A stretch of DNA of 64,000 nt from Streptomyces fulvoviolaceus (GTDB lineage: Bacteria > Actinomycetota > Actinomycetes > Streptomycetales > Streptomycetaceae). Where the stretch lies: contig NZ_JOEY01000004.1 in NCBI RefSeq assembly GCF_000718165.1, positions 186,001 through 250,000 on the forward strand, in the 5' to 3' direction. Both the position numbers and the translations under genes were made by a program. Positions 7,422-58,204 of the stretch are shown piece after piece (position 1 is the first letter of the stretch; every line of letters starts with the position of its first letter). A model generated the notes under the pieces. That model was not told where the DNA came from. It was given only the letters and a program-made list of their open reading frames with translations, and did not search any database.

Positions 7422-8081
7422 CTACCGGTTCGGCGGTGCCACCGGTGTGGGCAGGTCCAACGCACGGCCGAGGGCGGAGGTGACAGGGGTGGCGTGATCG
7501 GGCAGGTGCAGGGCGGCCCAGGCGGCGGCCAGTTGGAGGAAGTCGATCAGGTCGCGCTCTGCGTCGGCGAGCAGGCGACGCAGATCGGTGACGGGTAGCT
7601 CGATCACCGGGCTGTCGTCGTGCTCGGCGTCGACGGTCAATCGGACGACTTCGCCGTGCCGTTCAGCGAGCGGAGAGGGGTCGTGGCCGAAGGAGGCCCA
7701 GCCCTTGCCGTCGATGGCCTCAAGCCAGTCGCGCCTCTCGTCCAGACCGTTGCAGCAGCCCGGCAGCAGCGTGGTGCCGGTTGCGGTGTCAGCGATCCGC
7801 AGGCCGCCGGATGCGAAGAGGTCGTCCATGGTGAGCAGTCCGTGCAGGAAGCCCCCGAGTGGGTCGGTGGGCCGTGGTGGGCGCCCGTCGTCCTCGGGAT
7901 CGATGTTGTTGCATTCGGCGATCCGCATCACCGCTGTGCCGACCTCGGCAGGATCGAGCCTGCCGCTGAGCGGCAGGTAGCCGTATGGCCCGGACTCCGC
8001 GACAGGCCAGAGGGTGAAGCCGTCGGAGGCGTGGATCTCCAGGACGGGCTGCAGAACGATCACCCAGGAAGTCTGCGGCAC
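7422..8081 (-). CDS. Hypothetical protein
   Basis: This is an unrecognised 219-residue soluble protein starting at a GTG (MPQTSWVIVLQPVLEIHASDGF). Codon bias is normal for Streptomyces, so I take it as a real chromosomal gene. Features are an N-terminal segment WPVAESGPYGYLPLSG, two adjacent cysteines in LLPGCCNGLDERRDW, and a C-terminal helical part (LRRLLADAERDLIDFLQLAAAWAALHL). The combination resembles small Streptomyces proteins found near SUKH or immunity-type genes, but I cannot name the family. It is the first gene to the right of the putative island boundary. Confidence 0.65.
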   Translation of the reverse strand: MPQTSWVIVLQPVLEIHASDGFTLWPVAESGPYGYLPLSGRLDPAEVGTAVMRIAECNNIDPEDDGRPPRPTDPLGGFLHGLLTMDDLFASGGLRIADTATGTTLLPGCCNGLDERRDWLEAIDGKGWASFGHDPSPLAERHGEVVRLTVDAEHDDSPVIELPVTDLRRLLADAERDLIDFLQLAAAWAALHLPDHATPVTSALGRALDLPTPVAPPNR

Positions 8082-8487
8082 CCCTGCTCACGCCGCACGG
8101 CGATTTCTGCGCGACCTCCTGCTCTCGCGCGTCCGTCACACTGCCGACGGGAGCGGGCTGTCCCTGCATCGATCATCCGGTCAGCGGGACGTTGTGCAGG
8201 CGGGCGATGCCGAGCACTGCCGACGACCGCCTGGTCGACGGCCCACTCCACCTGGCACGGAGTGGGCTGGAACGCCTGCTTCTTCACGTTGTTGCGGGCG
8301 ACGGCGCAGGTGCGCTCGGCCGTGTCCTCGCTCGGGTCGTCGGGCGCGGATGCGGCGGCGAGCCGCGTGGACTGAGCGCCGCTGCCGGACGCGGACGACT
8401 TCGCGAGCCGCGGGAGCGCCGGGGGGACTCCCGTCCCCTGGCGTTCGGCAGCAGTGGCAGCAGCTGCCGGAGCTGAGTGCGGCGGCG
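8082..8487. other. Decayed intergenic region with possible minus-strand relic
   Basis: No intact gene is visible. On the minus strand, about 8180-8470, one frame reads as a plausible secreted protein tail (TCAVARNNVKKQAFQP, CQVEWAVDQAVVG) and then turns into nonsense. A compensating frame gives a different C-terminus, so this looks like a frameshifted relic. I do not recognise its family. Confidence 0.35.
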
Positions 8488-8862
8488 ATGGCCGTACTGA
8501 CCGGCCGCGTCGGCGGTCGGCCCGACGCGTCGTCGGCGCCCCGCGCCTACGAGGGGAAGGAGATCCCCGGGGGCGGACGCAGGAAGTGGGCCGTCGACGG
8601 GATCGGCTTCTCGAAGATCGACTTCTCGCTGGTCTCCAAGCTCGACTACGACAGCCTGGAACGGTCGCAGAAGACCGCACCCGTGCGGAAGACCCCGTTC
8701 CCACAGGGCAAGCCCACGGAGCGGTCGATCGTCGTCGCCCTGGCCGACATCAACTGCGAACGAGGACGCCCTCAATGCGGCGGAGAAGGTGCTGGGCACC
8801 CGAGTGCCCGGGGTGGTACGGCTCGCACAGAGGTCCGGGGTTTGGGGCGGCGGGAAGTGGTG
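8488..8862 (+). pseudogene. Frameshifted gene remnant of unknown function
   Basis: From 8488 one frame reads like real protein: SAPRAYEGKEIPGGGRRKW, then IGFSKIDFSLVSKLDYDSLE and KKTPFP-like basic/proline runs, then RSIVVALADIN. At about 8756-8765 the coding signal moves to another frame that continues EDALNAAEKVLGTRVPGVV and ends at a TGA at 8860-8862. A single-base indel therefore seems to break the gene. No clear start or ribosome binding site remains. Function unknown. Confidence 0.45.
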
Positions 8863-49696: not shown

Positions 49697-49835
49697 CCCC
49701 CGGCACTGCCACGGCATCGCAAGGTCTCCGCCACGCTTCCGCAACGGTATTCACAGGGAATGCCCGCACACTGCAAGCTCGTTCACAGCTTGTGCGACCG
49801 TGAAAACGGTGATTTACGGGGACTTGGGGAACACG

Positions 49836-51338
49836 ATGACCGAGGGACAGCCGGGGCCGGAACGCCGACGGGGACCGGGACGGCGTGCGGTGATCGCGGG
49901 GGCCGCGGTGGTGGCGACGGGGGCCACGATTCCCGTGGTGACAAAGGCGATCGACAGCGGGGACACTCCCCCTGCGAGCGCCCCGCACACGGCGGCCCCG
50001 GTGGCGAGCCGCGCCACCTCCCCGACCCCGACCCCCACTCGCCGCGCCCGCTCCGACAAGCGCCCCAACATCCTGCTCGTCCTCACCGACGACCAGCCGA
50101 AGGAGACGGACTGGGCGCTGCGGCAGACCGCCGACTGGCTCGGCGGCAGCGGTGTCACCTTCGCGCGGGCGCACGCCAACACCCCGCTCTGCGCGCCCTC
50201 GCGCGCCTCGATCATGTCGGGCCGGTACGCCCACAACCACGGCCTCCTCGACACCCGCCACCCCGCCCACCTGGACCAGCACACCACCGTGCAGCGGCAG
50301 TTGCACGAGGCGGGCTACCGCACGGGCCTGTTCGGCAAGTACCTGAATTTCTGGCGCCCGGGCACCAATCCGCCCCACTTCGACGAGTGGCTGCTCCAGG
50401 AGCCGGTGGCCTACTACAACGGCCACTACAACAACAACGGCACCGTCCGGAACATCAAGGGCTACAACACCACCGTCATCAAGGACCGCGCCCTCGACTT
50501 CATCGACAGGTCCCGTACGGACGACCGGCCCTGGTTCGCGTACGTCGCCACGCGCTCGGCGCACGAGGTGAACATCCCGGAGACGAAGTACGCCCACGCG
50601 CGCGTGCCCGACTGGGACGGCCGGCCGTCGGTCTTCGAGAGCGACAAGGCCGACAAGCCGCCCTTCCTCCGCAAGGCGAACCACTCCTTCGAGCAGGGGA
50701 AGGCCCTGCGCGAGCGCCAGTTGCGGACCCTGCTCTCGGTGGACGACGCCATGCGCGACTTCCACGACAAGCTGCGCGCGCTCGGCCAACTCGACAACAC
50801 CCTCGTGCTGTTCACCAGCGACCACGGCCTGTGCTGGGGCGACCACGGCTGGCTGCGCAAGTCGGTGCCCTACCGCCCGAGCCTGGAGGTGCCGTTCCAG
50901 CTGTCCTGGCCGGCCGGCGGCTTCACCGGAGGAACCGACGACCGTCTCACCGGCCACGTCGACATCGCCCCCACCTTCCTCGATGCGGCCGGCATCACCC
51001 CGGACACCCCGCACGACGGCCACTCCCTGCTCGACCGCGGCAACGACCGCGACCACCTGCTCGCCGAGTGGTGGTGGAACCGCCAGGACAAGCAGCCGAT
51101 CCACACCTGGGCGTCGTACATCGGCAAGTCCGAGCAGTACACGGAGTACTACCGCGGCCGCCTTGACGCCGACGGCCGCCCGAAGGGCAGTGGCAAGGTG
51201 ATCTTCCGCGAGTACTACGACCTGCGCGCCGATCCCTACCAGCTCACGAACCGGTTGCATGGCGCGAGCACGGCGGAGGAACGGCGGCTGGGGGTACCGG
51301 GGTTGGCGAAGGGGCTGGCGGCGGCGCGGCTCAGCTGA
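49836..51338 (+). CDS. Exported sulfatase (formylglycine-type)
   Basis: This 500-residue protein begins at MTEGQPGPERRRG, where GGGGA stands 6-10 nt upstream. A longer version from 49800 lacks a good site. The signal has RR residues followed by AVIAGAAVVATGA, suggesting Tat export. The sulfatase signature CAPSRASIMSGRY contains the Cys converted to formylglycine, and RPNILLVLTDDQ supplies the metal-binding Asp pair. TSDHGLCWGDHGW supplies the second metal site. GLFGKYLNFW and the C-terminal subdomain (YYDLRADPYQLTN) are typical of arylsulfatase A-like enzymes. The preference for a secreted sulfate ester is inferred. A sulfatase-maturing enzyme must be encoded elsewhere. Confidence 0.92.
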   Translation: MTEGQPGPERRRGPGRRAVIAGAAVVATGATIPVVTKAIDSGDTPPASAPHTAAPVASRATSPTPTPTRRARSDKRPNILLVLTDDQPKETDWALRQTADWLGGSGVTFARAHANTPLCAPSRASIMSGRYAHNHGLLDTRHPAHLDQHTTVQRQLHEAGYRTGLFGKYLNFWRPGTNPPHFDEWLLQEPVAYYNGHYNNNGTVRNIKGYNTTVIKDRALDFIDRSRTDDRPWFAYVATRSAHEVNIPETKYAHARVPDWDGRPSVFESDKADKPPFLRKANHSFEQGKALRERQLRTLLSVDDAMRDFHDKLRALGQLDNTLVLFTSDHGLCWGDHGWLRKSVPYRPSLEVPFQLSWPAGGFTGGTDDRLTGHVDIAPTFLDAAGITPDTPHDGHSLLDRGNDRDHLLAEWWWNRQDKQPIHTWASYIGKSEQYTEYYRGRLDADGRPKGSGKVIFREYYDLRADPYQLTNRLHGASTAEERRLGVPGLAKGLAAARLS

Positions 51339-51509
51339 CCCGGGTGGTGCGCGGGCGCTCGTGCGCCGCCCGTGTGCTCCCTTTTCCCCTACGGCAGTTG
51401 CTGCCGTCGCAACCTCACGCGGCGCGGCCGGCGTTTGGTGGACGTGATGCCATTGGCGGCCGCGCCTGGGAACCCTGCGGCCCGAACGAACGACCACCAC
51501 CGAGGCCGC

Positions 51510-52178
51510 ATGACCACCTATCCCGGGTGCCGGTCCTGCACCGACCCACCGACCGGTCCGGCGTCCGGCGAGGACGATGCCGCACCCTGCGACAGCCATC
51601 TGGTGCACGCGATGGCCGAGGGCAGCAGAGAGGCGTTCTCCGAGCTGTTCACCCGGCACGCGGGGCATGTGTTCGCGCACCTGCTCACCCGCGGCTTCCC
51701 GGCGGAGACTGCCGAGGACGCCGTGCAGGAGGCGTTCCTGACCGCCTGGAAGAGCGCGTCCGGGTTCCACGAGGGGAACGCCGTGGGCTGGCTGCTGCGG
51801 ATCGCGTACTGCCGTGCCGTGGACCAGGAGCGGGCGCACGGGCGGACCCGGGCGGTGGCGAACCGGGCCGGTGATCAGCTGTCCCCGTCCTCGGCCGTCG
51901 CCCCGTCCGCCGAGGACTGCCTCCTCGCCTCCTCGGCCCGCTACACGTCCCTGGCGGTCGCCCTGGCCGGCCTCCCGACCCGCTACCGCGAGGTCATCGA
52001 ACTCCGTTACGTCCACCAGCTCTCCGTCCGCCAGACCGCCCAGCGTCTCGGCGTACCGGAGAACACGGTGAAGGCGTGGGCGGCGCGGGGGTGTGCGCGG
52101 CTGCGGGAGTGGCTGCTGGTGGAAGGGGGTGAGGAGGATGACGACGGTGAGCGGAGGGTTCCCCGGCCTCGGCCTTAG
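51510..52178 (+). CDS. ECF-like RNA polymerase sigma factor
   Basis: This 222-residue protein has region 2 at about residues 35-110 (EAFSELFTRHAGHVFAHLL, DAVQEAFLTAWKSASGF, GWLLRIAYCRAVDQ). Region 4 is at about 145-200 (ALAGLPTRYREVIELRYVHQLSVRQTAQRLGVPENTVKAWAARGC). Region 3 is missing, so this is an ECF (group IV) sigma factor. The start at MTTYPGC is chosen because upstream in-frame codons do not look like protein. The N-terminal ~30 residues contain several Cys. It heads a four-gene operon with a membrane protein, an anti-sigma-like protein and an ABC ATPase. A GGGAACC sequence at 51478 could be part of an autoregulated -35 element. Confidence 0.92.
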   Translation: MTTYPGCRSCTDPPTGPASGEDDAAPCDSHLVHAMAEGSREAFSELFTRHAGHVFAHLLTRGFPAETAEDAVQEAFLTAWKSASGFHEGNAVGWLLRIAYCRAVDQERAHGRTRAVANRAGDQLSPSSAVAPSAEDCLLASSARYTSLAVALAGLPTRYREVIELRYVHQLSVRQTAQRLGVPENTVKAWAARGCARLREWLLVEGGEEDDDGERRVPRPRP

Positions 52179-53472
52179 GGGGCGGGGGCATGGGGTGGTG
52201 GTGTGGGCGCGGGTTCGGCGGGGGGTGTGGCCGGTGGGGGCGGGGCTGCTCACCGGGCTGCTCGTCTACGCGACCCTGGCGGCCACCAGTGACCCGCCGA
52301 GCGACTGGTTCGCCACGGGCGCCGAGATTCATGACGCGCTGACCTTCCTGCAACTGGTGTCCGTCCCGCTGGCCTGCTGGCAGGGCGGGTTGGAGGCCCG
52401 TGCGGGGACCGGGTGGACCGTGGAATGCGCCGTGCGCGGTCCTTGGACCACAACGCTGTTGTCCCTCGCGCCCTCCGTCCTGTGGCCTTGCGCCGTGTTC
52501 GGGGCGCTGGTGGCGGTCCTGCTGGCCAGGGCCTGGCCGCACGCCACGGCGGGCAGCCCGCCGCTGGCCGCCGTGGCCTACTCGGCGGCGTTGCTGATCA
52601 CCATGGCCGGCCTCGGGCACGTCCTGGGCTGCCTGCTGCCGCTGCGCATCGTGCCCGTGCTGCTGGGCGCGGCCCTGTACGCGCAGAGACTCGTGAGCTT
52701 CGGTGAGGACGTCCTGGGCGTGGAGTACCCGACGCGACGGACATACGACGGCCCGACACTCCCCCGGGACGTCTGGTCCGAGGAGTCCACTTCGCCCTGG
52801 TTGCCCTGGGCGGTGCCGGCGCTGCTCGTGACCGTCGTCCTCGCAGCCGTCGCCGTACGGGCCCGGCGCTGGTTCGCCGCCGGACCGCTGCTCCTGGCCG
52901 TGGTGCTGTTCGGCGTCGTCCGCCCTTTGGGGGGTGCGGTCCTGGAACCGGGCGTCGGCACCATCCCCGTCCACTGCTCGAACGACACGCCGGTCGTCTG
53001 TGTGTCGGCCGACCGGGAGGCACAGCGGAGTGAACTCGCCGACGTCGCCGACCACTTCGGCCGACGCATCGACGGTGTGCGAGGCGCTCCCACCCACTAC
53101 TTGGCAACCGCCGACACGACTTTCGGCCGAGCCTTCGCCGCCGATGAGGAGGCGTGGACGGCCGAGATCGAGCTGGGGAGCCCCCGCGCCACCCGTTTCC
53201 GGAACGTCGCCAACGACATCGCGGAGCCCTACTGGATCTACGACCCGGCATACGAGGGCCACCGCGACCTGGCCCTCGTCAAGGCCGTGACGGACTGGCT
53301 CCTTCCCGCCCCATACCGCCCCAAGGACAGGTCGCCCCATGTCCGCCGCCTGGCAGCTCGGCTCACCGCCCTCCCCGAGCCCACCCGAACGGCCTGGCTG
53401 AGCAGGTATCTCACCGCGGTCCAAAACAGGGACGACCGTCTCCCCCAGCTCCCAAAGGCAGAAACCCCATGA
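52138..53472 (+). CDS. Membrane protein with large extracytoplasmic C-terminal domain (candidate ABC permease subunit)
   Basis: This 444-residue protein begins 41 nt inside the sigma gene with GAGGAGG directly upstream of its ATG. Six or so hydrophobic helices are visible (for example VGAGLLTGLLVYATLAAT, LLSLAPSVLWPCAVFGALVAVLLA, AVAYSAALLITMAGLG, PWLPWAVPALLVTVVLAAVAV, WFAAGPLLLAVVLFGVVRPL). The last ~160 residues form a soluble, probably external domain with two Cys (IPVHCSNDTPVVCVS) and YWIYDPAYEGHRDLALVK. No permease motif is decisive. The presence of an ABC ATPase gene in the same operon suggests it is a transporter subunit. The family is not recognised. Confidence 0.75.
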   Translation: MTTVSGGFPGLGLRGRGHGVVVWARVRRGVWPVGAGLLTGLLVYATLAATSDPPSDWFATGAEIHDALTFLQLVSVPLACWQGGLEARAGTGWTVECAVRGPWTTTLLSLAPSVLWPCAVFGALVAVLLARAWPHATAGSPPLAAVAYSAALLITMAGLGHVLGCLLPLRIVPVLLGAALYAQRLVSFGEDVLGVEYPTRRTYDGPTLPRDVWSEESTSPWLPWAVPALLVTVVLAAVAVRARRWFAAGPLLLAVVLFGVVRPLGGAVLEPGVGTIPVHCSNDTPVVCVSADREAQRSELADVADHFGRRIDGVRGAPTHYLATADTTFGRAFAADEEAWTAEIELGSPRATRFRNVANDIAEPYWIYDPAYEGHRDLALVKAVTDWLLPAPYRPKDRSPHVRRLAARLTALPEPTRTAWLSRYLTAVQNRDDRLPQLPKAETP

Positions 53473-54395
53473 CCGAACACCACGCCCCCTCCATCCGACC
53501 GCACCCGACCCCCACCGACGACCGCCACCTCCCCACCCCCTGGGTGACCGCCTACGCCGAGGGCAGTCTCGACCCCGACCTTCTCGGGCATGCCGAACCC
53601 CATCTGCGGCACTGCCGCCGCTGTGCCCGCGCGGTCAACGAGGCGGTGCGGCTGGGGCCGTACGGAGCGCGGCTGGACGGGCTGCACGCCGCGCTGCTGG
53701 ACCGTATCGGCGGCCCGCCCCCTGGTCCGACGCCCTCCCCCAGAACCGCCCGCCGACCCCCCTGGCTGGCGGTGACGCAGGGGCTGCGGCTGCCGTGGCT
53801 CGTCGCCGTCATCTGCGTGTGCGCCCTCGGCGTCGGGCTGGCCGAACTGGGCGACTCCCCCACGCCCCGCATCCTCCTGCTGCTCCTCGCCCCCACCCTG
53901 CCCATGCTCTGCGTGGCCGGCAGCTACGGCGGCCGGGCCGACCCGTTCGCCGAGGTCACGCGGACGACCCCGGCCGGCGGCCTGCGCATCCTGCTGATGC
54001 GGACCGCCCAGGTGCTGGTGGTGTGCGTGCCGCTGCTCACCGGCGCGGCGGCCCTGATGCCGGGGGCGGGCGCGCACCCGTACACCTCGGCCGGCTGGCT
54101 GCTGCCCTGTCTGGCGGTGACCCTGGCGACGCTCCTGCTCAGTTCCTGCCTGGGCAGCTGGACGGCGTCCCTGGTGACGGGCGGCGGCTGGCTGCTGTTG
54201 GTGTACGTGCTGGCGAAGCCGATGGTGAAGCACTACGAAGGCGATCTGTCCCATCGGGTGACCGCGGCCCTCACGGATCTGCAGCTGCGGTTCGTCGGCG
54301 CCCTCGGCATGGTCGCGTTCGCCACCGCCTCCGCCGTACTCGCCGAGCTCCTGGTCCTCCGTCGCCACGCCTTCACTCGCCTGGGGGCCAGGTGA
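53469..54395 (+). CDS. Zinc-finger anti-sigma-like protein fused to a membrane (permease-like) domain
   Basis: This 308-residue protein starts with ATGA overlapping the previous stop. Its N-terminal ~75 residues carry the zf-HC2 signature of anti-sigma factors, H-x3-C-x2-C in HLRHCRRCARAVNEAV, in a typical helix (WVTAYAEGSLDPDLLGHAEPHL). From about residue 100 six membrane helices follow, starting LRLPWLVAVICVCALGVGLAEL. The fusion places sigma-factor binding and a membrane or transport function in one protein. It is the presumed regulator of the sigma factor two genes upstream, and possibly at the same time a subunit of an ABC exporter with the downstream ATPase. Confidence 0.82.
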   Translation: MTEHHAPSIRPHPTPTDDRHLPTPWVTAYAEGSLDPDLLGHAEPHLRHCRRCARAVNEAVRLGPYGARLDGLHAALLDRIGGPPPGPTPSPRTARRPPWLAVTQGLRLPWLVAVICVCALGVGLAELGDSPTPRILLLLLAPTLPMLCVAGSYGGRADPFAEVTRTTPAGGLRILLMRTAQVLVVCVPLLTGAAALMPGAGAHPYTSAGWLLPCLAVTLATLLLSSCLGSWTASLVTGGGWLLLVYVLAKPMVKHYEGDLSHRVTAALTDLQLRFVGALGMVAFATASAVLAELLVLRRHAFTRLGAR

Positions 54396-55081
54396 TCCGC
54401 GCCGACCGCGTCTCCGTACGCCGCCGCCGTGCCCTCGTCCTGGACGGTGTCGACCTCGTCCTCGGGCCAGGTGTGCACGCACTGCTCGGGCCCAACGGCG
54501 CGGGCAAATCGACCCTGTTGAGGGTTCTCGCGACGGCCGCCGCCGGTACCGAGGGCACCGTCACCCTCCTGGACCGGGACCCCCGCATCCCGGCCCAGCG
54601 GCAGGAGATCCGGCGCCGACTGGGCTATCTCCCGCAGGAGTTCGGGGTGTTCCGCGGCTACACCGTGCGCGAGTTCCTGTCGTACGCGGCCTGGTTGCGG
54701 GACATGCCCGGCGGGCGGATCCCCGCGGCCGCCGAGCGCGCCGCCGACGCCGTCGGGCTCGGCGATCGGCTCGGCCACAAGCTGCGCACCCTCTCCGGCG
54801 GCATGAAGCAGCGGGTCGGGATCGCGCAGGCCATCGTCAACTCGCCCTCCCTGCTGTTCCTGGACGAGCCGACGGTCGGGCTCGACCCGGGCCAGCGGGC
54901 CGGTTTCCACTCGCTCGTGCGCGAACTGGGCCGCAGTGCCTGCGTGTTGGTGTCGACGCACCTCATGGAGGACGTGCGGGGCGCGTGTACGGACGTCACG
55001 GTCCTGTCGGACGGGCGCGTCACCTTCCAAGGCACGCTCGACGCACTGGACGCGGCCGGAGGCTACACGGCGGTGGTCTGA
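54392..55081 (+). CDS. ABC transporter ATP-binding protein
   Basis: This 229-residue ATPase starts at a GTG overlapping the previous stop (GTGA). It is complete: Walker A LLGPNGAGKSTLLRV, Q-loop YLPQEFGVF, signature TLSGGMKQRVGIA, Walker B LLFLDEPTVGLDP and the H-loop VSTHLMEDV. The sequence type (short, DLVLGPGVHALLGPNG) is that of ABC-2-like export systems such as bacitracin or lantibiotic-resistance ATPases. It should energise the two membrane proteins encoded just upstream. The end of the gene overlaps the convergent rhomboid-like gene by 19 bp. Confidence 0.93.
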   Translation: MIRADRVSVRRRRALVLDGVDLVLGPGVHALLGPNGAGKSTLLRVLATAAAGTEGTVTLLDRDPRIPAQRQEIRRRLGYLPQEFGVFRGYTVREFLSYAAWLRDMPGGRIPAAAERAADAVGLGDRLGHKLRTLSGGMKQRVGIAQAIVNSPSLLFLDEPTVGLDPGQRAGFHSLVRELGRSACVLVSTHLMEDVRGACTDVTVLSDGRVTFQGTLDALDAAGGYTAVV

Positions 55082-55851
55082 GCCCGGTACCGCCGGATCA
55101 GCGGCCAGGTCGCGACCCCGATCGTCAGGGCGATCAGATGCCCCCAGTTCGTCATCGGATCCGTGAACGCGATCAGGTCCGACACCAGCATCCCGCCGAA
55201 GGCGGCCAGCAGCGGCCACCGCAGCCACGGCGTGAGCAGTCCGGCCAGGGCACCCGTCCCCGCGGCGACGCCGAAGCTGACGCCGTAGTCGAGGCGGTGC
55301 AGCGAGCTGTCGGGGAGATGGCCGACCAACACCGCGAGCCCGATCGGGACTTCGGTCGCGAGGGTGGCGAGGACGTGCCCGAGCAGGAAGACGCCGGCCG
55401 TGCGCAGTCCGCCGATCCGGCGCTCCAGCGCGGTGAGCACGAGCAGCAGGGCGATCGCGTACGGCGACAGGATCCCGCCCGCGATCCACAGCGCGCTTGC
55501 CAGCAGCACCAGTACGGGGGTCTGGAGCAGGTGTGCCACATCCGTGCTGGAGCCCTGGTGGAGGGTGTGTACGAGGGCGGGGTCGGCGTATGTCGTGAAG
55601 AGGGAGGTGACGGCGAGGACGGCGGCGTAGACGAAGGTGAAGGGGGTGCCGGTGGGGGTGGGGAGGAGGCGCCAGGGGCGAAGTCCCGTCCGGCGGGCGA
55701 GCGTTGCGGGGACCGCCGTCGCGCTCACCGGGCCGCGCTGAGCCGGGACTCCGTCCAGCAGCCCCGAAGCCTCCGGAAGAGGCACCGCCAAAGCCGGCCG
55801 GTCGTCGGTCGTCGCAGTACGTTCCACGGTGAGGCGCTCCTTCCCTTTCAC
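55063..55851 (-). CDS. Rhomboid-like membrane protein
   Basis: This 262-residue protein has a ~65-residue cytoplasmic N-terminus followed by six hydrophobic helices. The motif DYGVSFGVAAGTGALAG places a serine in the position of the rhomboid G-x-S nucleophile, and a later NWGHLIALTIG supplies a His in the expected last helix. FVYAAVLAVTSLFTTYAD and VFLLGHVLATLATEVPIGLAV are consistent with the rhomboid-like Streptomyces family. Because the sequence around the serine differs from the canonical GASG, protease activity is uncertain. It is convergent with the ABC ATPase gene, and no functional connection is visible. A start at an internal GTG (VERTATTDDR) is possible. Confidence 0.75.
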   Translation of the reverse strand: MKGKERLTVERTATTDDRPALAVPLPEASGLLDGVPAQRGPVSATAVPATLARRTGLRPWRLLPTPTGTPFTFVYAAVLAVTSLFTTYADPALVHTLHQGSSTDVAHLLQTPVLVLLASALWIAGGILSPYAIALLLVLTALERRIGGLRTAGVFLLGHVLATLATEVPIGLAVLVGHLPDSSLHRLDYGVSFGVAAGTGALAGLLTPWLRWPLLAAFGGMLVSDLIAFTDPMTNWGHLIALTIGVATWPLIRRYRAQTTAV

Positions 55852-56144: not shown

Positions 56145-57457
56145 CAGGTGTCAGGGACGTGCCTAGGGTGGCGATCACGCAGCTCCGATACAGCTTTCGC
56201 CTGTACCCGGAGCCCGGCCAGGCCCGTGCGCTGGCCAGGGCGTTCGGGTGCGCCCGGGTCGTCTACAACGACGCCGTGCGCGCCCGCCGCGACGCCCACA
56301 CCGAGGGCCACCCGTATCCGAGCCTGTCGCTGCTGTCTCGCGCGCTGGTCACCGAGGCGAAGCGCCGCCCGGAGCGGGCCTGGCTGGGTGAGGTGTCCGC
56401 CGTCGTGCTCCAGCAGTCGCTGCGCGATGCCGAGCAGGCCTACCGCAACTTCTTCGCCTCTCTGAAGGGCGAACGCAAAGGCCCGAAGAGCGAAGAACCC
56501 CGGATGAAGTCCCGCAAGGACAAACGGGCCACGATCCGGTTCACCGCGAATGCCCGCTGGTCCATCACGCCGGACGACCGTCTGAACCTGCCGAAGATCG
56601 GGCCTGTGAAGGTTGTTTGGTCCAGGCGGCTGCCCGCCGTCCCGTCCAGCGTCACTGTGATCAAGGACAGCGCGGGCCGGTTCTTCGCGTCTTTCGTCGT
56701 CGACACTGACCCCGCCGCCGACGCGGAGCGGATGCCTGCCACCGACCAGAGCGTGGGCATCGACCTCGGACTGACCCACTTCGCGGTCCTCTCCGACGGC
56801 ACGAAGATTGACTCGCCACGATTCCTGCGCCGTGCGGAGAAGAAACTCAAGAAGGCCCAGCGGGAGTTGTCCCGCAAGCAGAAGGGATCAAAGAACCGGA
56901 ACAAGGCCCGCCTGAGGGTCGCCCGCGCCCACGCCCAAGTGGCCGACGCCCGCCGCGAGTTCCACCACCAGCTCTCCACCCAGCTGATCCGCGAGAACCA
57001 AGCGATCGCCGTGGAGGACCTGGCCGTGAACGCCCTGGCGCGCACCCGGCTCGCGAAGTCGGTGCACGACGCCGGCTGGGGCTCCTTCCTGACCATGCTG
57101 GAGTACAAGGCGGCCCGGTACGGGCGCACTCTCGTCACGATCGACCGGTTCGAGCCGACCAGCCAGGTCTGCTCCACCTGCGGCACCAAGGACGGGCCCA
57201 AACCCCTCCACGTCCGCGAATGGACCTGTCCCGCCTGCGGCACCCTCCACGACCGCGACACCAACGCCGCGATCAACGTCAAGACGGCCGCCGGACTGGC
57301 GGTATCGGCCTGCCGAGCGCCGGTAAGACCAGAACCCGTTCTGGCACAGCGCGAAGAAACAGGAAGCCACGGAATCCCCACCGCCGACCGTGCCGCCTAG
57401 CGGCGCGGCAACCGGCAGGGACGGCCAGAATCCCCGGGCTCCAGCCCGGGGAGCATG
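56145..57457 (+). mobile_element. IS200/IS605-like (tnpB-only) insertion sequence, apparently intact
   Basis: The element consists of one tnpB gene and a right-end hairpin CCCCGGGCT-CC-AGCCCGGGG (57432-57451), followed by AGCATGTCAAC. The hairpin has the same design as that of the other tnpB element in this window (9-bp arms with C-T/A-G closing bases and a 2-nt loop). The left boundary is estimated. No tnpA is present. The right flank starts within a decayed beta-glucosidase gene, so the insertion lies at or near a former gene. Confidence 0.72.
56168..57400 (+). CDS. tnpB: TnpB RNA-guided DNA endonuclease
   Basis: This ~410-residue protein has the complete OrfB/TnpB architecture. N-terminal helix-turn-helix-like part: QLRYSFRLYPEPGQARALARAFGCARVVYNDAV. 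Catalytic Asp: SVGIDLGLTHFAVL. Glu: IAVEDLAVNAL. Zinc finger: CSTCG...CPACG. Final Asp: LHDRDTNAAINV. All RuvC residues are present, so it may be active, unlike the copy at 24912-26190, which belongs to a different subgroup. The start at the GTG of MAITQLRYSF is preferred over the GTG at 56159. TnpB nucleases use an RNA from the 3' end of the element to cleave the donor site and promote element retention. Confidence 0.92.
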   Translation: MAITQLRYSFRLYPEPGQARALARAFGCARVVYNDAVRARRDAHTEGHPYPSLSLLSRALVTEAKRRPERAWLGEVSAVVLQQSLRDAEQAYRNFFASLKGERKGPKSEEPRMKSRKDKRATIRFTANARWSITPDDRLNLPKIGPVKVVWSRRLPAVPSSVTVIKDSAGRFFASFVVDTDPAADAERMPATDQSVGIDLGLTHFAVLSDGTKIDSPRFLRRAEKKLKKAQRELSRKQKGSKNRNKARLRVARAHAQVADARREFHHQLSTQLIRENQAIAVEDLAVNALARTRLAKSVHDAGWGSFLTMLEYKAARYGRTLVTIDRFEPTSQVCSTCGTKDGPKPLHVREWTCPACGTLHDRDTNAAINVKTAAGLAVSACRAPVRPEPVLAQREETGSHGIPTADRAA

Positions 57458-57475
57458 TCAACAGGTCTACTTCCT
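57250..57475 (+). ncRNA. Candidate omega (reRNA) guide RNA of the tnpB element
   Basis: In characterised TnpB systems the guide RNA scaffold spans the 3' end of tnpB and the right end of the element, and the guide is the adjacent flanking DNA. The hairpin at 57432-57451 and the following GTCAAC fit the scaffold end, so the guide would begin after about 57462 with AGGTCTACTTCC. The ends given are estimates, and no promoter or processing site is visible. Confidence 0.35.
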
Positions 57476-58204
57476 GATGGGACCTGGACCCGGCGGCGAA
57501 CAGTGCCCTGAGGTGATCGTGGAGCTGATCCGCTCCGGCCGCATCTCGGAGGAACGGATCGACAATTCCGTACGACGCCTGCTGCGCGAGACGTTCGTCC
57601 TCGGCCTCTTCGAGAACCCGTACGCCGATCCCGACAAGGCCGAGGAGACGGTCGGCGCCTCCGAGTTCACGGCCCTGGGTGAGGCCGCGCGCCGCTCGCT
57701 CACCGTTCTGACCAACGACGCGCTGCTGCCGCTCCAGGGGAGGCCGAATCTGTACATCCAGGGCGTGATCGAGCAGACGGCCTCGGCGTACGGAAATCCC
57801 GTCGCCGACCCCCTCGACGCGTAGCCGTCCTGCGTCTGGGCACCCCCTACGAGCAACGGCCCGGCGCCTTCGAGTCGTTCTTCCACGCGGGCTCGCTCGC
57901 CTTCCCCGAGGACGAACTGAAGGAGATCCTGCGGCTGCTGGAGTCGGTGCCGACACTGGTGTGCGTCAACCTCGAACGTCCGGCCGTACTCCCGGAGATC
58001 GCGGAGCGGGCGGCGGCCCTGGTGGCCGACTTCGGCGCCTCGGACGCGGCACTGCTCGACGTGGCCTTCGGGCGGGCGCGGGCGGAGGGACGGCTGCCCT
58101 TCGAACTGCCCCGCTCCATGGCGGCGGTTGAGGCGTCCCGGCCGGACGTGCCGAACGACACGGAGGACCCGGTGTTCCCGTACGGGCACGGGCTGGACGT
58201 CTAG
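57463..58204 (+). pseudogene. Beta-glucosidase (GH3) gene remnant, C-terminal half only
   Basis: After the insertion sequence the frame reads VYFLMGPGPGGEQCPEVIVELIRSGRISEERIDNSVRRLLRETFVLGLFENPY, a stretch typical of glycoside hydrolase family 3, here quoted as the span 57468-57625. LTVLTNDALLPLQG follows. A frameshift near 57820 changes frame. The new frame continues LRLGTPYEQRPGAFESFF, TLVCVNLERPAVLPEIAERAAALVADFG and YGHGLDV to a TAG at 58202-58204. The N-terminal catalytic barrel is absent. The gene is therefore dead, truncated at the insertion element and frameshifted. Confidence 0.88.

Follow-up and report, generated by a model that had tools for sequence, protein, structure and literature searches.

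Organization of the operon

The window analyzed here comprises 64,000 nucleotides of Streptomyces fulvoviolaceus DNA, and our subject is an operon of four overlapping genes within it, the third of which appears to join a zinc anti-sigma domain to one half of an ATP-binding cassette (ABC) transporter. The genes code for an extracytoplasmic function (ECF) sigma factor, a membrane protein (tm2, protein 2), the fused protein (asf, protein 3) and an ABC ATPase (abc, protein 4). An initial annotation had proposed a four-gene overlapping operon at this place, and its coordinates and overlaps of 41, 4 and 4 nucleotides (nt) were reproduced (Table 1).

The first gene contains the sigma-70 region 2 (Pfam, 4.2e-9) and region 4 (8.3e-16). 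In the fourth, Walker A, the Q-loop, the signature, Walker B and the H-loop were all found by motif inspection, which together with the Pfam match agrees with its description as a complete ABC ATPase. An ATPase with these motifs is what an ABC-2 / type V transporter requires.

The second and third genes had been regarded as membrane proteins, and asf as a zinc domain running into six helices. The structure models bear this out: asf has six membrane helices after the zinc domain, and both models align best with permeases of type V (ABC-2). ABC transporters make up 49 of the 50 structure-search entries listed for asf and all 50 of those listed for tm2. According to the models, the two proteins are six-helix half-permeases of the ABCG/ABCA/NosY fold. 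The Pfam models of ABC-2 permeases gave no match to either protein at E <= 1, and for this reason we call both ABC-2-like rather than Pfam members; tm2 has no Pfam match of any kind at this threshold. The segment DPFAEVTRTTPAGGLRILLMRT in the permease part of asf resembles a coupling loop. The half-permease fold of tm2 spans residues 17-245; an additional helix and a C-terminal domain follow, the latter probably external and, as initially suggested, possibly the sensor. The two cysteines noticed earlier in this protein, C280 (52975-52977) and C288 (52999-53001), are invariant in all 22 aligned sequences, the window counted.

Table 1. Features of the operon and output fusions at other loci. Positions refer to the window, in the last three rows to the locus named.
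Feature	Position	Strand	Basis or detail
Candidate autoregulatory ECF-type promoter	51410..51435	+	CAACC 51410-51414, 17-nt spacer, CGTT 51432-51435, 8 nt to GTG 51444
ECF sigma factor gene	51444..52178, start GTG 51444 (possibly leaderless) or ATG 51510	+	Pfam Sigma70_r2, Sigma70_r4_2
perm2/tm2, 444 amino acids, ABC-2-like half-permease with extra helix and C-terminal domain	52138..53472	+	structure model
asf, 308 amino acids, zinc anti-sigma domain joined to ABC-2-like half-permease	53469..54395	+	
Class I zinc anti-sigma domain, asf residues 1-81	53469..53711	+	four modelled helices and motif
Six-helix ABC-2/type V-like half-permease, asf residues 97-308	53757..54392	+	structure model
ABC transporter ATP-binding subunit (abc)	54392..55081	+	Pfam ABC_tran 8.1e-31 and catalytic motifs
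Nucleotidyl cyclase fusion, L104	1667-3001	-	
Histidine kinase fusion, L117	4215-5537	-	
Histidine kinase fusion, L120	3080-4240	-	

The zinc domain of asf

Residues 45-52 of asf read HLRHCRRC, and the full motif is H20-x24-H45-x3-C49-x2-C52, so that H20, H45, C49 and C52 would be the zinc ligands. The family scores are low: Pfam zf-HC2 reaches 15.7 bits (cut-off 22.2 bits) and the NCBIfam model 'anti-sigma factor' 21.8 bits (1.5e-4; cut-off 100). At the level of sequence, the extended motif is stronger evidence for an anti-sigma domain than these scores. The domain is modelled with helices at residues 23-30, 36-48, 50-62 and 66-81, mostly with a predicted local distance difference test value (pLDDT) above 90. 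In the model it is a three-helix bundle plus a fourth helix which, together with the motif, is the make-up of a class I zinc anti-sigma factor (ZAS). The initial proposal of an H-x3-C-x2-C zinc anti-sigma domain is supported by the motif and the helix pattern; the curated family cut-offs were not reached.

H-x3-C-x2-C occurs in 48 of 55 aligned asf sequences (window counted), so the initial proposal was not refuted by a missing or unrelated zinc finger in the homologues. A further histidine lies 25 residues ahead of it in 31 of these 48 sequences. The seven sequences without the motif are those of the loci L042-L044 and four database proteins (P0017-P0020).

Co-occurrence with the sigma factor

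A census of 105 loci with 107 permease modules was compiled (the window, L039-L082, L103-L122 and L153-L192), in which some genomes are represented by two loci. Forty regions were taken from the match list of protein 3 and 20 from a further match list. One must keep in mind that L039-L082 and L103-L122 were picked by a match to protein 3 or to alignment A1, which biases them toward zinc-bearing copies. A search with the permease part only yielded 74 places, 40 of which entered the census as L153-L192. The other 34 comprise one place outside the window's genus that is identical with L108, nine outside the genus, mostly weaker, which were left out, and otherwise places within the genus.

The zinc domain is present on 99 of the 107 modules, and for 95 of these 99 a sigma gene lies upstream at a distance of no more than 1.3 kb. 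In three more (window, L039, L040) the sigma gene lies beyond tm2, and the remaining one (L041) starts at the end of its contig. In total, 98 of the 99 zinc-bearing modules have an ECF sigma gene as partner, as is characteristic of ZAS proteins, and in the subset from the permease-only search both are present in 40 of 40 loci. The proposed co-occurrence of the operon genes was confirmed by this strong co-conservation, and sets of sigma, zinc-permease and ABC genes are found across the phylum. The domain family and the co-occurrence of zinc domain and sigma factor suggest that residues 1-81 of asf bind the sigma factor.

Eight modules carry no zinc domain, and six of these have no sigma gene directly upstream. 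L042 and L043 gave no sigma match in the stretch examined, and L120 gave none in 7.1 kb. In L044 an ECF sigma gene is clearly present (profile 3.3e-48) on the same strand, 2.75 kb upstream of tm2; in L104 and L117 the sigma gene of a neighbouring zinc-bearing set sits further upstream. The two others, L119 and L121, have the sigma gene directly upstream and, in place of the zinc bundle, a stub of about 40-55 residues ahead of the membrane part. These two represent a minimal variant of sigma, permease and ABC genes (L119:5505-6203, minus strand; L121:5621-6343, plus strand), and no second multi-helix gene was found next to either set.

Sets of tm2, permease and ABC genes without a zinc domain were observed in L042 (permease 8040-8652), L043 (6782-7388) and L044 (6321-6927). 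The reverse case is seen in L045 (4517-5569, plus strand), where a sigma gene of the window's type is followed by a free-standing zinc domain of 83 amino acids without a membrane part; this pair adjoins a complete set of another subgroup.

Predicted promoter and start of the sigma gene

Enumeration of two-part words upstream of the sigma genes yielded GAACC...CGA in 10 of 12 loci of group B and 14 of 14 of group C, and AAACC...CGT in 9 of 11 of group D; the best value in the shuffle control (ten per group) was 7. From the enumeration, once inspected, two patterns were chosen. GAACC-N16/17-CGAT lies ahead of sigma in 35 of 98 loci and occurs 14 times elsewhere in approximately 2.2 Mb, both strands counted, and AAACC-N16/17-CGTC in 9 of 98, with 11 occurrences elsewhere. 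The spacer is 17 in all 35 promoters of the former type and 16 in all nine of the latter. An in-frame GTG follows the -10 element after 7-10 nt in 43 of the 44 promoter-bearing loci, and this suggests that the transcript starts at or near the start codon of sigma.

The exact patterns are absent from 54 of the 98 loci, among them the window, for which Table 1 gives a candidate. Its layout was recognized by eye as CAACC-N17-CG[A/T]T-N8/9-GTG at L218 and ahead of the first sigma gene of L045, and a similar one as CAGCC-N17-CGAT-N9-GTG at L039 and CAGCA-N17-CGGT-N9-GTG at L040; the sigma genes at these four places are all of the window's type. A looser pattern has three matches within the window, the candidate among them, against 0.31 expected. 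As all these patterns have the typical shape of ECF promoters, the sigma factor probably transcribes its own operon. A scan of the own genome with CAACC-N17-CGTT-N8-GTG gave four matches, the reversed control none. Besides the operon promoter, one match lies nearby on the other strand (window 51269-51305), and two (L222, L223) are not clearly ahead of a gene. A wider regulon in this genome is not claimed.

The region 51444-51509 was compared between the window and three relatives and aligned over 69 nt without gaps, with 33, 15 and 37 differences at the three codon positions. We lean towards a coding stretch rather than a leader, and translation of the sigma factor may begin 22 codons ahead of ATG 51510, at GTG 51444.

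Distribution and gene order

Of 200 genomes sampled from the window's family, 86 have a match to protein 3 as query (E <= 0.001). At the level of the class, the permease-only alignment A3 (E <= 1e-6) matches 63 of 296 genomes, and at the level of the phylum 31 of 396; the genus and phylum labels ('Streptomyces', 'Actinomycetota') were deduced from named relatives. The window's own genome holds a second copy of the module (L062). The commoner gene order is sigma, zinc-permease, ABC and second permease, and the rarer one, seen in the window, L039 and L040, is sigma, second permease, zinc-permease and ABC. The exact set, initially noted as not known to be described, is not peculiar to this place; it turned out to be one form of a phylum-wide module, and its order in the window the rarer one. 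An origin of the set by chance or artefact was rejected, as it recurs widely.

Forms of tm2 close to that of the window are rare: within the genus, 4 of 199 genomes have one at E <= 1e-20. The own genome and G838 have sigma followed by protein 2 as in the window, the G838 contig ending soon past this pair; G040 shows the form of L044 without an adjoining sigma gene, and G907 the commoner order. Downstream of abc, 89 of 104 loci have a multi-helix gene with at least three hydrophobic segments, a number that is somewhat generous, since frame selection preferred hydrophobic stretches and the frame in L104 is doubtful. Six loci gave no result and nine fewer than three segments; six of these nine are L039-L044, where tm2, if seen, sits upstream. 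Among pairs with gene models, sigma and asf overlap by 4 nt in 20 of 30 cases, and asf and abc do so in 20 of 40.

Alternative outputs on the permease module

A further hint towards the role of the membrane part arises from three zinc-free modules in three genomes of the phylum, which carry another output at the C-terminus; this number is small. In L104 a class III nucleotidyl cyclase (Pfam Guanylate_cyc 2.3e-26) comes after the module, and in L117 and L120 a histidine kinase does so (HisKA_3 7.2e-14 and HATPase_c 6.3e-10; 3.5e-15 and 2.3e-12, respectively). The fusions in L104 and L117 share their stretch with a set of sigma, zinc-permease and ABC genes.

The free zinc domain of L045 and the permeases of L042 and L043 without one indicate that zinc domain and permease are separable modules. 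Since anti-sigma, kinase and cyclase outputs all act in the cytosol, the N- and the C-terminus of asf would both be cytosolic, which fits six helices; a kinase or cyclase at the C-terminus likewise fits an even number of helices and a membrane half that signals to the cytosol. We tentatively raise the possibility of a phylum-wide family of sensory half-transporters, in which the ABC-2 half could be a receptor with an exchangeable output (anti-sigma domain, histidine kinase or cyclase) that reports the substrate state of the transporter to transcription, phosphorelay or second messengers.

Proposed mechanism and alternatives

For the operon itself we consider it rather probable that it constitutes a self-regulated ECF sigma circuit, whose anti-sigma factor at the same time supplies one membrane half of an ABC-2-type transporter that probably works as an exporter. 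A heterodimer of proteins 2 and 3 would form the membrane channel, and a protein 4 dimer would power it. At rest, protein 3 would use its N-terminal zinc domain to tether the sigma factor at the cytosolic side of the membrane. Binding of a substrate or inhibitor to the transporter, or its occupancy, may then move the half-permease and free the sigma factor, which could transcribe its operon from the promoter just upstream and thereby provide more transporter in a positive feedback. The release step is the weakest link of this proposal.

It could also be argued that protein 3 is a membrane-anchored anti-sigma factor with six helices as sensor or anchor only, and that the ATPase and tm2 make up a transporter apart from it, their genes being no more than targets. 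Membrane anti-sigma factors outside transporters are the rule, and MibW of the microbisporicin cluster reportedly has several helices. MibW is said to keep the sigma factor MibX at the membrane (PMC4973701). Moreover, tm2 could homodimerize and work with the ATPase on its own, and in the kinase- and cyclase-fused copies the permease module sits in the place of an input domain. This explanation is nevertheless unlikely in our view: the permease part of asf aligns, as modelled, with ABC-2 half-transporters, its gene overlaps abc by 4 nt in half of the loci with both gene models, and the minimal sets of L119 and L121 suggest that the module serves the ATPase itself.

A different route of release would be proteolysis of protein 3, for instance by the rhomboid-like protein encoded next to the operon in convergent orientation (window 55063-55851, minus strand; Pfam Rhomboid_2 1.7e-29, GVSFG motif). 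Proteolysis is a common way of freeing sigma factors from membrane anti-sigma factors, and such a gene adjoins the operon in the window, L039 and L040, with one more near L070. These are only 4 of the 105 loci, however (window counted; flank lengths vary), and the model of protein 3 with its six helices offers no large outer domain for a first cut, which makes this route improbable. Even less credit can be given to the idea that the zinc domain has a structural or redox role and does not bind this sigma factor. Zinc motifs may be structural (PMC7406223), and two loci keep the sigma gene without the domain. Against this stand the near-complete pairing of domain and sigma gene and, in L045, the sigma factor of the window's type accompanied by a free zinc domain, so that we regard this idea as very improbable.

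Relation to known systems

The class I zinc anti-sigma factors (ZAS, or class I anti-sigma domain, ASDI; ChrR, RsrA, RsiW) resemble asf in the zinc motif, the four-helix domain and the adjoining ECF sigma gene. The motif spacing is that of ChrR. According to PMC7406223, approximately 35% of ZAS proteins are soluble, and one or more membrane helices are present in the others, with accessory domains annotated by Pfam. Unlike the proteins described there, asf continues into an ABC-2-like half-permease without a Pfam match. As no Pfam permease model matches, such fusions may already sit unrecognized in published tables.

The sigY-yxlCDEFG operon of Bacillus subtilis is said to combine an ECF sigma factor, anti-sigma function and an ABC exporter under autoregulation; its anti-sigma proteins are reportedly small, separate and not fused to a permease. 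Here, by contrast, small unfused anti-sigma proteins beside ABC genes are not what is found, the zinc domain being part of the permease chain. In BceAB-BceRS the state of the transporter governs its own expression by way of a separate histidine kinase, with a MacB-type permease and without a sigma factor. None of the four operon proteins has a kinase match, and the listed permease matches are type V transporters, which differs from a flux sensor of the BceAB type.

MibX/MibW, compared by description alone, shares a membrane anti-sigma factor holding an ECF sigma factor, feed-forward activation and ABC transporters within the cluster; the text available does not present MibW as a transporter component, and the ABC genes form separate pairs (PMC4973701). 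LytTR systems likewise combine a regulator with a membrane inhibitor and autoregulation, and some are linked to ABC genes. They differ in that the regulator is a LytTR DNA-binding protein and that the inhibitor is not described as an ABC half-permease in the portion of the source at hand (PMC6193735 for both statements). ECF257 is named in a review as associated with ABC transporters, among the ECF sigma factors without an anti-sigma factor.

Searches of the open-licence literature of PubMed Central turned up no account of an anti-sigma domain joined to an ABC-2 half-permease; the 2021 ECF reclassification lies outside that scope and may list the group. Within that scope the parts are of known kinds, and their fusion is the new element. 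For the question of how a working transporter makes its state known to the cell, the best-studied case is BceAB, whose sensor and transporter are separate proteins. An anti-sigma domain inside the chain of a half-permease, together with the kinase and cyclase versions, could make the coupling of transporter state to gene expression tractable in one small operon. The relatives of asf are mostly named 'zf-HC2 domain-containing', 'hypothetical' or 'membrane' protein in the database, and two of those listed 'anti-sigma factor RsiW'. If the proposed circuit is correct, it would assign a function to these proteins and supply synthetic biology with ECF switches whose promoters are predicted.

Neighbouring genes

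Upstream of the operon lies a sulfatase gene (window 49800-51338, plus strand; Pfam 5.1e-44), for which the other 104 loci gave no relative at E <= 1e-20. Downstream, an open reading frame at 56159-57400 (plus strand) resembles by eye, in its motif, a TnpB-type transposon protein and is followed at 57390-57824 by an apparent piece of a GH3 glucosidase.

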